Shown here piece after piece: positions 11,246-34,107 of a stretch of DNA of 34,615 bases (positions are counted from its first letter, which is position 1; each line of letters starts with the position of its first letter). The stretch is from the NCBI GenBank assembly GCA_016927055.1, contig JAFGNK010000033.1, positions 1 through 34,615 on the forward strand, given 5' to 3'. A program made the translations under genes and the position numbers. The notes under the pieces were generated by a model that was not told the DNA's origin, did not search any database, and worked only from the letters and a program-made list of their open reading frames with translations. This stretch comes from Methanotrichaceae archaeon (GTDB lineage Archaea; Halobacteriota; Methanosarcinia; Methanotrichales; Methanotrichaceae).

Positions 11246-11446
11246 TCAATTGCAAGATCCCTGTTCCTTTACCATACCCGACTTTTTCGGATCGAACTTC
11301 ATTGCCCTGTCGTACACGATCTCTGAATAGCACGGCACATTACTCCGTAGTGCTAAATGGGGCTTCCTAATCAGTCCTACTACTCCAATCTTGTCGTGAT
11401 GTTCGCTACGACTGCCACACCCAGGGCAGCGTCCATTTGCGTCCAT
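11246..11446 (-). CDS. short ORF with CPGCG zinc-ribbon-like motif, possible gene remnant
   Basis: MDANGRCPGCGSRSEHHDK...; isolated between intergenic stretches; no family recognised. Confidence 0.2.
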   Translation of the reverse strand: MDANGRCPGCGSRSEHHDKIGVVGLIRKPHLALRSNVPCYSEIVYDRAMKFDPKKSGMVKEQGSCN

Positions 11447-29890: not shown

Positions 29891-30235
29891 TTAAGGAAGC
29901 AACTGAAGCTCAATCATTATTGGCTCAAGGCTGCTCTTGATCTGAGGAAGCTCATTTTCGATGATATTCCAGATCTCATACAAATCAACTCCCATATAAT
30001 TATGGATTAGCACATCTCGAAATCCTGCCAGTCCTCGCCATTGGATTTCGGGGTGTGATTGTCTCAGATCTGGAGAAAGATGCTTGGTTGCTTCACCGAT
30101 AATCTCGAAGTTGCGGATTATTGCGTCTTGCATCATGTTAGATGCGTGAAAGGCCCCCTTACCTTCTGTAGAATAGGATTCGATTCTTTGAATGCACTCC
30201 CAGATATGGATCAAGTAAAGTTTGTCGTCCTTCAT
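29891..30235 (-). CDS. HEPN-domain toxin (HepT-like, DUF86)
   Basis: RDVLIHNYMGVDLYEIW gives the RxxxxHxY motif; IIRNFEIIGEATKHLS; ATGA-type overlap with the nucleotidyltransferase gene. Confidence 0.9.
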   Translation of the reverse strand: MKDDKLYLIHIWECIQRIESYSTEGKGAFHASNMMQDAIIRNFEIIGEATKHLSPDLRQSHPEIQWRGLAGFRDVLIHNYMGVDLYEIWNIIENELPQIKSSLEPIMIELQLLP

Positions 30236-30528
30236 AATGGTGTTGCCTCGGCAAGCACTCTGTCTCTGATGTACCAGTGCAGGGCTCTTTCGCTAACCAC
30301 ATCCACCTTTCGCTGCAGGAGGTCTTCGAGGTCCTGCATAAGGGCTACATGATCCATTAAGCTCTTCCCCGGTTCCATCTCTACCAGAATGTCCAGGTCG
30401 CTTTCGGGCCCAGCCTCTCCTCTGGCTACGGAGCCGAAGACCCGAAGGTTATGGGCACCGTGCCTGGCAGCTATGGCCAGGATCTCCTGGCGTTTGGCTT
30501 TCAGCAATTCCTCAATTTTCATAGGCAT
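30232..30528 (-). CDS. MNT-type nucleotidyltransferase antitoxin (MntA-like)
   Basis: VFGSVARGEAGPESDLDILVE (GS..DxD) and KVDVVSE. Confidence 0.92.
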   Translation of the reverse strand: MPMKIEELLKAKRQEILAIAARHGAHNLRVFGSVARGEAGPESDLDILVEMEPGKSLMDHVALMQDLEDLLQRKVDVVSERALHWYIRDRVLAEATPL

Positions 30529-30559: not shown

Positions 30560-32413
30560 TTACCTTATTATATTATTTATTTTAGTAATCAATGCTGACA
30601 ACTCAGTTACTTTCTCAATTTCCTCTTTCGTAGCGATTTCAGCAATCCTCTTTCCGAATTCGGGTTTGCTTGCTTTTCTTACCGTTGAATCGCAATTTTC
30701 ATATATATATTTATTGACTTTATTTATGAGGCGGTCTGAAAACTTTCCGGATTTTCTTATGGAATAGATCTCCTCTGGCATCCATTTATCTGCTCCAGTC
30801 TTTGGCCAATTTGAATTTAAGCATCTGCTAATCAATTCATCAGAAAATATATCTTCAAATTCTTTATCACCTACTAATACGATATTATTTTCTAGGAACT
30901 CTGGGCTAAAGCTAATTTGCTTGAGTTTATCAAGAGTAACCTTTCTAGATTTATCTTTTTGAATATCTTTATCTATAAATAATACCGTAGCTTCGCTCTT
31001 ATTTCTATTTAATAGCTTTAAAAAGGGCTCCCAACTGGCATTCCCATCCAGATTTACTAAAACTATGCCGTCTTCTGCTAGCGATCTTGAAATTAATTTT
31101 TTATAAATTATGGGCAGGGCATTTTCCTCAGTATCTCCTTCAACAATTAAGAAGCAACGTTCAAAAAATAAACTACTATTTTTAATACATGATATTTCAG
31201 AAATGCTATCCAAGAACTCCTTTATATCTTGTTCATTATAATCTTTTAGATATTCTGCATATGAAATTCCGTTTTCTTGTATTATGTGATTTATGATACG
31301 CGCAGGAGCCCGATCGATCATTGAAATGGAATGAGTACAAATGATTGCTTGAACATGTGAAGAAGGATTAAAAGATAGATCCATTAAAGTATAATATATT
31401 TCCTTTTGAGCACTATAATGCAAACTCGCGTCTGGTTCATCGTAACCCCTAATAATCATTTTATGAGGTTCTTTTATCTTCATCTCTTTATCCCATTCAA
31501 TTATAGCTAAAAGTAGTCTTTTCTTAGATCCTTCCCCTATGCTATTTATCGAATGAGGACCGGTTCCAAAGTCAACCAAGATATCAGAAAGCGTAAATCC
31601 TTGCGCAAAATCGATAGAGTAGTTTCCGTAAATGTTTATGACTTTATCTATCTTTGTTATTACTTTTTCTTTTAGGTTTTCTTGGATTTTTTTATTCAGA
31701 ACTTCTTCAATTTCATTTTTTTTAAGGACTAGCTCCTGCTTCAATGTTTCATTTCCATTTCCATCATAATCATAGAAAAAAGTTTTGTATATATTCCGCA
31801 ATGTTGTTTGGACATGGAGTTGAGGGTTGCCATAATTTGAACTATCATAATACTCAAATACTGGCAATAATTGCGAGATCTCCGACCATTTGATATTACT
31901 ATAGCCGGCTACTTTTTTCAGTGAATTGAATCTTTCTCGAACAAAATCTGTTAATTTCGCTTTGGCATTTTCTGCAGTATCATAATCTAAACCTAACGTC
32001 TTTGAAAGCGTTTTTAGTTCAGCAGCTTTTAATTCATTGAAATTATTAAGTTCTTTTATTTCAAATAAAAATCTTTGTATGAATATGTTTGTCGTCACTA
32101 TGCCTGTTTCATCCAGTGAAAACTCTTTTTTAAGCGTTATTTTATCATCCAATACATACTCAGGAGGTATCTTTTCTTCTGAATTAGGCTTGAATGTGAG
32201 AATAATGCTACTTGTTGTTTCACGATGGCCATTTAGTTCTTGGAAACTATCGTAGCTAGGCATTTTATTATTGATGAAAAGATCTAGCGCTCTAAGGATG
32301 CATGATTTTCCAGAGTCGTTTTCTCCTACAAATATTGTCATCTTGCTAATAGGAATATCTCCGCTGTCTTTATAGCATTGGAAATTTAGTAACTTCATGG
32401 AGACTAATTCCAA
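30560..32413 (-). CDS. OLD-like AAA/ABC-type ATPase with C-terminal TOPRIM domain
   Basis: Walker A GENDSGKS, signature-like GEGSKKRLLLAI, Walker B-like MIIRGYDEPD, H-loop CTHS; TOPRIM-like FLIVEGDTEENALP and VLFIDKDIQ; TTG start, AT-rich gene. Confidence 0.85.
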   Translation of the reverse strand: MELVSMKLLNFQCYKDSGDIPISKMTIFVGENDSGKSCILRALDLFINNKMPSYDSFQELNGHRETTSSIILTFKPNSEEKIPPEYVLDDKITLKKEFSLDETGIVTTNIFIQRFLFEIKELNNFNELKAAELKTLSKTLGLDYDTAENAKAKLTDFVRERFNSLKKVAGYSNIKWSEISQLLPVFEYYDSSNYGNPQLHVQTTLRNIYKTFFYDYDGNGNETLKQELVLKKNEIEEVLNKKIQENLKEKVITKIDKVINIYGNYSIDFAQGFTLSDILVDFGTGPHSINSIGEGSKKRLLLAIIEWDKEMKIKEPHKMIIRGYDEPDASLHYSAQKEIYYTLMDLSFNPSSHVQAIICTHSISMIDRAPARIINHIIQENGISYAEYLKDYNEQDIKEFLDSISEISCIKNSSLFFERCFLIVEGDTEENALPIIYKKLISRSLAEDGIVLVNLDGNASWEPFLKLLNRNKSEATVLFIDKDIQKDKSRKVTLDKLKQISFSPEFLENNIVLVGDKEFEDIFSDELISRCLNSNWPKTGADKWMPEEIYSIRKSGKFSDRLINKVNKYIYENCDSTVRKASKPEFGKRIAEIATKEEIEKVTELSALITKINNIIR

Positions 32414-32629
32414 TTAGCTCACCTTTTTAAAAGAATATTTTCCCTTAATATACTGATTTAAATATTTGCCTTGAGAAGAAGCAGCCATAAATGAGTCATA
32501 TATCCCTTTTGGGACTTTGTAATATTCATAAATGTTTCCATTATTAAATTCTACCTCAAGAAGTTCAGTAGTTTCGTAATATCCAATTGATTTTACGTTA
32601 CTTGATTTTACGGCTTTTCTTTCTATAAT
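32414..32629 (-). CDS. KTSC-domain small protein, not in ORF track, no canonical start
   Basis: Minus-strand frame reads IERKAVKSSNVKSIGYYETTELLEVEFNNGNIYEYYKVPKGIYDSFMAASSQGKYLNQYIKGKYSFKKVS*; matches the remembered KTSC pattern; stop codon directly abuts the OLD TTG start. Confidence 0.75.
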   Translation of the reverse strand: MIERKAVKSSNVKSIGYYETTELLEVEFNNGNIYEYYKVPKGIYDSFMAASSQGKYLNQYIKGKYSFKKVS

Positions 32630-32689
32630 TATATCCCCCGAGAGCTGAAATGGATTGTCTTATGATTGCTTATATTTCTTGCGATTAAT

Positions 32690-32893
32690 TTATGAAATCT
32701 GGGTCTCTTCATCGAATCGACCAAACTCATCCCAAGATCCTTCGCCAAAGACGCCGCAGAATTTCAAGGCATCAAACCGCACCACTTTCGGCTTCAGCCT
32801 TTCTCCTTCATTAAAATCCACTTCATCCAGTGGTTTGAGTACACCGCCTTCATAAACACACCCAACGGTCTTTGATGCGCTCAATTGTTCCAT
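32690..32893 (-). CDS. AF2212-like (DUF104) antitoxin, apparently without an adjacent PIN toxin
   Basis: VYEGGVLKPLDEVDFNEGERLKPKV matches the antitoxin pattern; downstream gene is KTSC/OLD rather than PIN. Confidence 0.75.
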   Translation of the reverse strand: MEQLSASKTVGCVYEGGVLKPLDEVDFNEGERLKPKVVRFDALKFCGVFGEGSWDEFGRFDEETQIS

Positions 32894-33400: not shown

Positions 33401-33455
33401 TAGGCAAGCCCATAGCCATTTATCCGTGGAAAACCAAAAGGTGATTGGTGAGATA

Positions 33456-33644
33456 ATGGATGGAGCAATTAAGGCGCGATATGAGAACAAAGTCCTAAAG
33501 CCCCTGGGAGAACTGGATCTGAAAGAAGGAGACGAGGTCGAGATTAAAGTGCGAGGAAGTGCTATCAGTAGGATCTTTGGGATTGTGAAATGCTGGGAAG
33601 GGCTAGAAGAAGCACATGAAGATTACGAGACAAATGTTCATTGA
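33456..33644 (+). CDS. AF2212-like (DUF104) antitoxin, VapB-type
   Basis: MDGAIKARYENKVLKPLGELDLKEGDEVEIKVRG; internal ATG 33456 of the 33111-33644 ORF; overlaps the PIN gene. Confidence 0.85.
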   Translation: MDGAIKARYENKVLKPLGELDLKEGDEVEIKVRGSAISRIFGIVKCWEGLEEAHEDYETNVH

Positions 33645-34107
33645 TGCCAATATCTTCACATATCTTCTGACTGGCCATCCCATTTATGGCAGAAACTGCC
33701 AGCAGCTTCTCGAAAAGGTCGAAAGCGGCGATTTGGAGGCATTCATCTCGCCCCTGGTTATCGACGAGGTATCCTATGTTCTGATGGTTCAGACGGCGAG
33801 GAAAACGGGCGTCTCGCAAGATGCCAAATCGATAAAGCGAGCCATGTTGGCAGACTGGCAAGAATGCCTTACCCCCGTAGGCAAATTCTATGACTATCTC
33901 GACCTGCTAATCTCGACAGGCCATTTGAAGGTTCTGAGCCTGGACTATTCCGTCTCCAGAATTGCCCTGAAGTGCGCTAAAGAATATCGACTCCTTTCCA
34001 GGGATGCCTTGCATGTCGCCTGCTGTGAGGCATACGGGATAAGAGAGATGGCCACAAACGATGGCGAATTTAAGCGAGTCAGTTTCTTAACATTATGGAA
34101 TCCATAA
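33616..34107 (+). CDS. PIN-domain toxin, VapC-type
   Basis: Acidic residues present: MFIDANIF, PLVIDEVSYV, LLSRDALHVA, MATNDGEF. Confidence 0.9.
   Translation: MKITRQMFIDANIFTYLLTGHPIYGRNCQQLLEKVESGDLEAFISPLVIDEVSYVLMVQTARKTGVSQDAKSIKRAMLADWQECLTPVGKFYDYLDLLISTGHLKVLSLDYSVSRIALKCAKEYRLLSRDALHVACCEAYGIREMATNDGEFKRVSFLTLWNP

Follow-up and report, generated by a model that had tools for sequence, protein, structure and literature searches.

A recurrent gene pair joins a small KTSC protein to an OLD-family ATPase-nuclease and may represent an undescribed kind of defence module

OLD proteins, which combine ATPase and nuclease activities, are common in defence systems. PMC10568477 defines class 1 by its lone gene, class 2 is represented by Gabija, and class 3 is that of the retrons. 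Some HerA systems have been noted to include a KTSC protein termed 'DNA-binding' (PMC9503650), although the same author group that calls KTSC DNA-binding in that paper calls it RNA-binding in another. We analysed a stretch of 34,615 nucleotides (the window) from a Methanotrichaceae archaeon, whose genome assembly comprises 2.37 Mb in 212 contigs, and in which an OLD gene directly follows a KTSC gene. The features of the locus are as follows.

32690-32893, minus strand: orphan AF2212-like (DUF104) ORF, PF01954 with E 1.2e-12, judged to lie outside the module
32669-32677, minus strand: TATA-like element AAATATAAG, proposed from sequence and spacing
32632-32640, minus strand: probable ribosome-binding site of the KTSC gene, CGGGGGAT, by direct reading
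32414-32626, minus strand: KTSC protein (PF13619) of 70 residues with a non-canonical start, ATA at 32626 or ATT at 32629
32414-32428, minus strand: probable ribosome-binding site of the OLD gene, AAGGTGA, inside the last KTSC codons (aaaaaggtgagctaa, then TTG)
30560-32413, minus strand: OLD-family ABC ATPase and TOPRIM nuclease of 617 residues with a TTG start

The initial annotation had proposed an OLD-like gene starting with TTG at 32413, and Pfam agrees, with matches to AAA_15 (PF13175, E 5.2e-29) and to OLD-like_TOPRIM (PF20469, E 2.7e-11). The protein has the features of the OLD family, namely an ABC ATPase with Walker A and B motifs, signature and H-loop, and a C-terminal TOPRIM domain with a glutamate, a DxD and further acidic residues. 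In an alignment with the clade defined below, the Walker A residues G30, N32, D33, G35 and K36, the Walker B residues D325 and E326, and also G293, G295 and H361, are conserved in all 29 members. In the TOPRIM domain, E425 and E429 are kept in 29 of 29, D481 and D483 in 28 and E518, E520 and D521 in 27, the remaining members having gaps at these positions. The ATPase and catalytic motifs are intact. PADLOC placed the protein between GajA, Old and AriA, at about 105 bits each.

The KTSC frame contains no ATG, GTG or TTG downstream of its last upstream stop, and the gene is therefore missed by ORF lists. Its start was placed at ATA or ATT by alignment with homologues, which themselves begin with ATC in Methanolobus vulcani, with TTG in genome G168 and with ATG elsewhere. 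The Pfam match (E 2.5e-23, 82 bits against a cut-off of 25) spans 58 of 58 positions, and an AF2 model with a pLDDT of 95.5 superimposes on the solved structure 7x8c with a TM score of 0.96, so that both match and fold place the protein in the KTSC family. A complete domain with a fold predicted at such confidence rules out that the gene is a degraded fragment. The sequence of 7x8c is that of the M. vulcani KTSC protein, which is itself encoded ahead of an OLD homologue (L004/L045).

As had been noted from the sequence at the outset, the KTSC stop directly abuts the OLD start, the TAA ending at 32414. The same layout, with GGTGA in the final KTSC codons and the stop touching the start, is common to the window, Methanolobus (aaaaaggtgaaataa, then the GTG of OLD) and Methanoperedens (aagaaggtgaaatag, then the TTG of OLD); in Methanolobus, GGAGGAG also stands 7 nt ahead of the ATC of KTSC. 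The touching codons, together with the position of the OLD ribosome-binding site within KTSC, are strong evidence that the two genes form one translation unit. Such translational coupling suggests that KTSC is a dedicated OLD subunit, and the two proteins would then probably form a physical complex. The TATA-like AAATATAAG could give the pair an archaeal promoter of its own.

The pair is not confined to this locus, so that the condition by which the initial annotation would have refuted the operon, a pairing restricted to this site, did not refute it. The joint search for KTSC and OLD homologues that the initial annotation had suggested was carried out across the phylum in 394 archaeal genomes. 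Of the five OLD proteins closest to that of the window (E below 1e-40, a set that counts the window protein itself), four had KTSC adjoining. The chance of finding KTSC within 1.5 kb of four out of five is about 1e-14, a rough figure that ignores relatedness and takes as inputs roughly 78 KTSC matches among those listed and, for each of the 394 genomes, an assumed size of 2.5 Mb. The search was widened to 84,980 species genomes with an OLD profile and a KTSC profile; a scan of genome contigs with the single protein had detected no relatives, and an alignment query did detect them. KTSC-OLD pairs were found in several lineages, comprising Methanolobus, Methanoperedens, Methanomassiliicoccales, three haloarchaea and Chloroflexota, and in three gene orders, with KTSC upstream, downstream (Leptolinea, Chloroflexi) or divergent (Methanomassiliicoccales). 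In public annotation, a Haloferax plasmid carries KTSC with an AAA ATPase. In a Helicobacteraceae MAG, a divergent KTSC-like gene lies downstream of OLD, and a MAG labelled as Micrarchaeota holds a near-copy of a Chloroflexota locus, which is possibly contamination. The distribution is patchy; within the class, 9 of 238 genomes have a match (E<=1e-10). Viral contigs yielded distant OLD proteins only, none of them with KTSC, and thus offer no evidence for a phage-borne module. In some loci the pairs have defence neighbours, namely GmrSD, type I HsdS, a Cap4-like nuclease and a Schlafen-type AlbA_2. At L054 (3951-13765), a Chloroflexota pair lies in a defence island with HsdS, a Schlafen AlbA_2 and a large Cap4-nuclease/ATPase protein.

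Several further arrangements came to light in these scans. At L029 (1-1692), a haloarchaeal KTSC gene stands 18 bp ahead of another AAA_15 ATPase gene, and KTSC may pair with further OLD-type ATPases in this manner. At L128 (1627-3786), a remnant of the KTSC C-terminus shares its reading frame with the beginning of a different OLD-like ATPase; since it is a C-terminal remnant only, it makes a weak case for a fusion of KTSC to OLD. At L008 (1401-1502, plus strand, genome G290), the 3' end of a clade OLD gene is accompanied by a KTSC-like fragment on the other strand. A Streptomyces plasmid OLD match of 26% identity has no annotated partner gene alongside. The long haloarchaeal KTSC ORFs at L124-L127 look proviral, with terminase- and portal-like neighbours by eye, and are unrelated to OLD.

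Most relatives that lack KTSC have, in its place, a gene of about 100 codons that touches or overlaps the OLD start. This partner occurs in Bacteroidota, Cyanobacteriota, Armatimonadota, Acidobacteriota, Pacearchaeota and some methanogens, and one haloarchaeal locus (L006) has both kinds. It scores 14.5 bits against the Pfam WYL family, which is below the cut-off; on the Deinococcus plasmid pDrdII, however, PGAP annotates the pair as a WYL domain protein and an AAA ATPase. An AlphaFold model of the partner (pLDDT 85.7) best matches the ssDNA-bound C-domain of DriD and PafBC. KTSC and the WYL-like partner are not similar in fold, their Foldseek lists sharing no significant match, and it is thus their position alone that argues for a common function. 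Downstream of methanogen WYL-OLD pairs, a second small protein family (L005, 3418-3738; L058, 6592-6900) gave no Pfam match.

A maximum-likelihood tree groups 29 OLD proteins in one supported clade (99/97). A 100/100 branch separates it from a Gabija-like set of 11 OLD proteins from bacteria, the genes for most of which are followed immediately by a long helicase-like ORF. Within the clade, KTSC is intact in 13 members, one of which has a WYL-like partner as well; 12 have a WYL-like partner, two KTSC fragments and two neither; an intact small neighbour is thus present in 25/29, or in 27/29 when fragments are counted. By parsimony the partner label changes at least five times on the tree. The two members without a partner and the two with fragments indicate that the partner may be dispensable. 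Among more distant OLD loci, 64 have neither KTSC nor a WYL-like gene within 1.5 kb, a comparison that is biased in that the relatives were chosen from a KTSC-linked query; two OLD-like loci outside the clade do have KTSC, as a gene (L029) or a remnant (L128).

The clearest single result is a natural swap between two genomes of one genus, G168 and G085, whose DNA on either side of the module site is 92% and 94% identical. Between these flanks G168 carries a KTSC-OLD pair of 2.4 kb (L129, 8974-11397), and at the same site G085 carries a WYL-OLD pair, also of 2.4 kb (L173, 7399-9792). Homology ends at 8974 of L129 and restarts at 11397, and the swapped unit is the small gene plus OLD, and nothing more. 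The site, which has a gene for a wecC-like dehydrogenase on one side and one for a flippase on the other, is a putative defence exchange site. In G085 the companion match is split over two frames and the OLD match begins at residue 11, and this copy may be decaying.

The window also holds other small systems. Directly downstream of OLD is a pair of HepT-like (HEPN) and MNT nucleotidyltransferase genes (29891-30528, minus strand). Upstream, at about 33450-34107 on the plus strand, an intact AF2212-like antitoxin gene overlaps its PIN toxin gene, and the two pairs make up a small toxin-antitoxin/defence cluster beside rpiA. Of the three AF2212-like genes in the whole genome, two lie within the window; the second of these is the DUF104 ORF at 32690-32893, which, as first described, is an orphan, having no PIN gene behind it and no PIN toxin in the same operon as expected of an AF2212-type toxin-antitoxin pair. 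In a synteny comparison with congeners no empty site for the module was found, and the region behind rpiA varies. In one congener (G540), two apparently near-identical PIN/antitoxin cassettes (L168, 1125-1849 and 3635-4359) flank a HEPN-MNT pair, next to the end of an OLD gene that is 63% identical.

Our literature search, outside whose reach lay the survey of ABC-ATPases by Krishnan et al. (2020), returned no description of KTSC-OLD or WYL-OLD, and for KTSC with OLD we found no name, in keeping with the initial impression that the combination is not a named system. The two are a conserved pair, and they are best read as belonging to an OLD class not yet described, whose small regulatory subunit can be exchanged; the initial suggestion that KTSC regulates the OLD enzyme is thus the best reading. 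Since the WYL-like protein occupies the place of KTSC in related modules, the small partner is probably an exchangeable sensor and OLD the constant effector, and because it is often exchanged it probably acts as a trigger or brake of the nuclease. That it senses nucleic acid is suggested by the resemblance of the WYL-like partner to the ssDNA-binding domain of DriD, and by the fact that, in the antiphage complex SIR2/HerA, KTSC forms a domain of HerA. Defence neighbours, patchy spread and exchange at a site form the context of a putative role against viruses or plasmids. We give a probability of about 50% to KTSC-OLD being a horizontally spread two-gene defence module, with OLD as effector and KTSC as nucleic-acid-sensing subunit. 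According to this model, an OLD multimer would be kept inactive with ATP bound; the small partner would bind a nucleic-acid structure, such as ssDNA or aberrant DNA, that arises when a virus or plasmid invades, and, so bound, would license or load the OLD ATPase, upon which the TOPRIM domain would cleave nucleic acid. More tentatively, the pairs may form a distinct OLD class in which a constant ATPase-nuclease is combined with interchangeable sensors (KTSC, WYL-like and perhaps others) responding to different triggers, so that swapping would retune detection.

The main rival to a sensor is an antitoxin. KTSC or its WYL-like counterpart would restrain a self-harmful OLD, and inhibition by phage, or loss of the antitoxin, would free the nuclease in a form of abortive infection. 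The small gene comes first in order and is translated first, both genes have weak start codons, the small partner is exchangeable as in toxin-antitoxin systems, and the window's pair clusters with the HEPN-MNT and AF2212-PIN toxin-antitoxin pairs. Gene order is variable, however, with KTSC downstream in Chloroflexota; in the clade, two OLDs are maintained with no partner and two more with KTSC fragments only; and the fusion of KTSC to HerA suggests a working domain rather than a labile antitoxin. We regard an antitoxin role as unlikely, though it is the most probable of the alternatives. Less probable again is that OLD acts alone, in the manner of class 1, with KTSC regulating its own operon at the level of transcription or translation. 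Class 1 OLDs do work as single genes (PMC10568477), and the absence of a partner in two clade members fits this, but the pairing outlasts inversion and changes of order, promoter-proximal control being less natural for a downstream KTSC, and the partner has been exchanged repeatedly.

We consider it improbable that the pair serves DNA repair or recombination rather than defence: OLD is related to Rad50/RecF-type ATPases, and by eye the haloarchaeal pairs have an Mre11-like gene nearby and L049 a Rad50-like one, whereas the sparse distribution across the class, the low G+C island, the plasmid copies and the allelic exchange at one site all speak against such a role. The block had been described as much more AT-rich than the core genes, which holds for OLD (32% G+C) and KTSC (29%) but not for the DUF104 ORF (46%; window, 51%). 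The initial annotation had taken DUF104, KTSC and OLD for one toxin-antitoxin operon in which KTSC and OLD replaced a PIN toxin, a proposal that has the shared strand and the 60-nt gap in its favour and that we now hold to be very improbable, given that DUF104 is ruled out as a component by its differing G+C and its absence beside every other KTSC-OLD or WYL-OLD pair among the homologous loci, that the intervening TATA-like element suggests separate transcription, and that an intact AF2212-PIN pair stands 0.5 kb away on the other strand.

If the preferred reading of an effector with an exchangeable sensor is correct, the conserved small partner offers a direct handle on what triggers OLD, and the solved structure 7x8c gains a cellular context. 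Such partners are easily overlooked by annotation, being of 70-110 residues, starting with ATA, ATT or ATC and, in the WYL-like type, falling below Pfam cut-offs.

The pair belongs to an OLD-family system, yet Gabija, class 1, retrons and PARIS each miss a defining feature. With Gabija (GajA-GajB) it shares the OLD-type ABC ATPase and TOPRIM, but it has a small KTSC or WYL-like partner in place of a UvrD-like helicase: beside OLD there is no helicase ORF, either in the window or in those KTSC- and WYL-type loci whose ORF lists were inspected by eye. The likeness to Gabija drawn at first is thus too narrow a name, there being no GajB-type helicase and the clade standing apart from GajA in the tree. 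Class 1 OLDs, among them P2 Old and the Thermus scotoductus OLD (6p74, to which the OLD profile has its best sequence match in the PDB), likewise work with neither helicase nor reverse transcriptase, but are single genes, whereas here the small partner is coupled and conserved. As to class 3, which has an adjacent reverse transcriptase and ncRNA, Pfam assigned the neighbouring genes to HEPN, MNT, AF2212 and PIN and not to a reverse transcriptase, and an Rfam search of the window gave one tRNA only. The OLD ATPase domain matches the AriA model of PARIS (AriA-AriB) end to end in PADLOC, but there is no separate AriB, KTSC is no nuclease, and AAA_15 and the OLD-type TOPRIM, the pair's one nuclease, share a chain. 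The structure 7x8c is of the same family and from a protein encoded next to an OLD homologue, but was solved alone, and we found no paper linking it to OLD. In the SIR2/HerA antiphage complex (8wiv, 8wld, 8wof) KTSC is likewise joined to a defence ATPase, as the HerA C-terminal domain, the machinery there being a HerA translocase and a SIR2 effector and here OLD with its TOPRIM. Finally, the WYL-like partner shares its fold with the regulators DriD, which binds ssDNA, and PafBC; these are transcription factors, whereas the partner is a lone domain of about 100 residues, without an HTH, encoded beside a nuclease.
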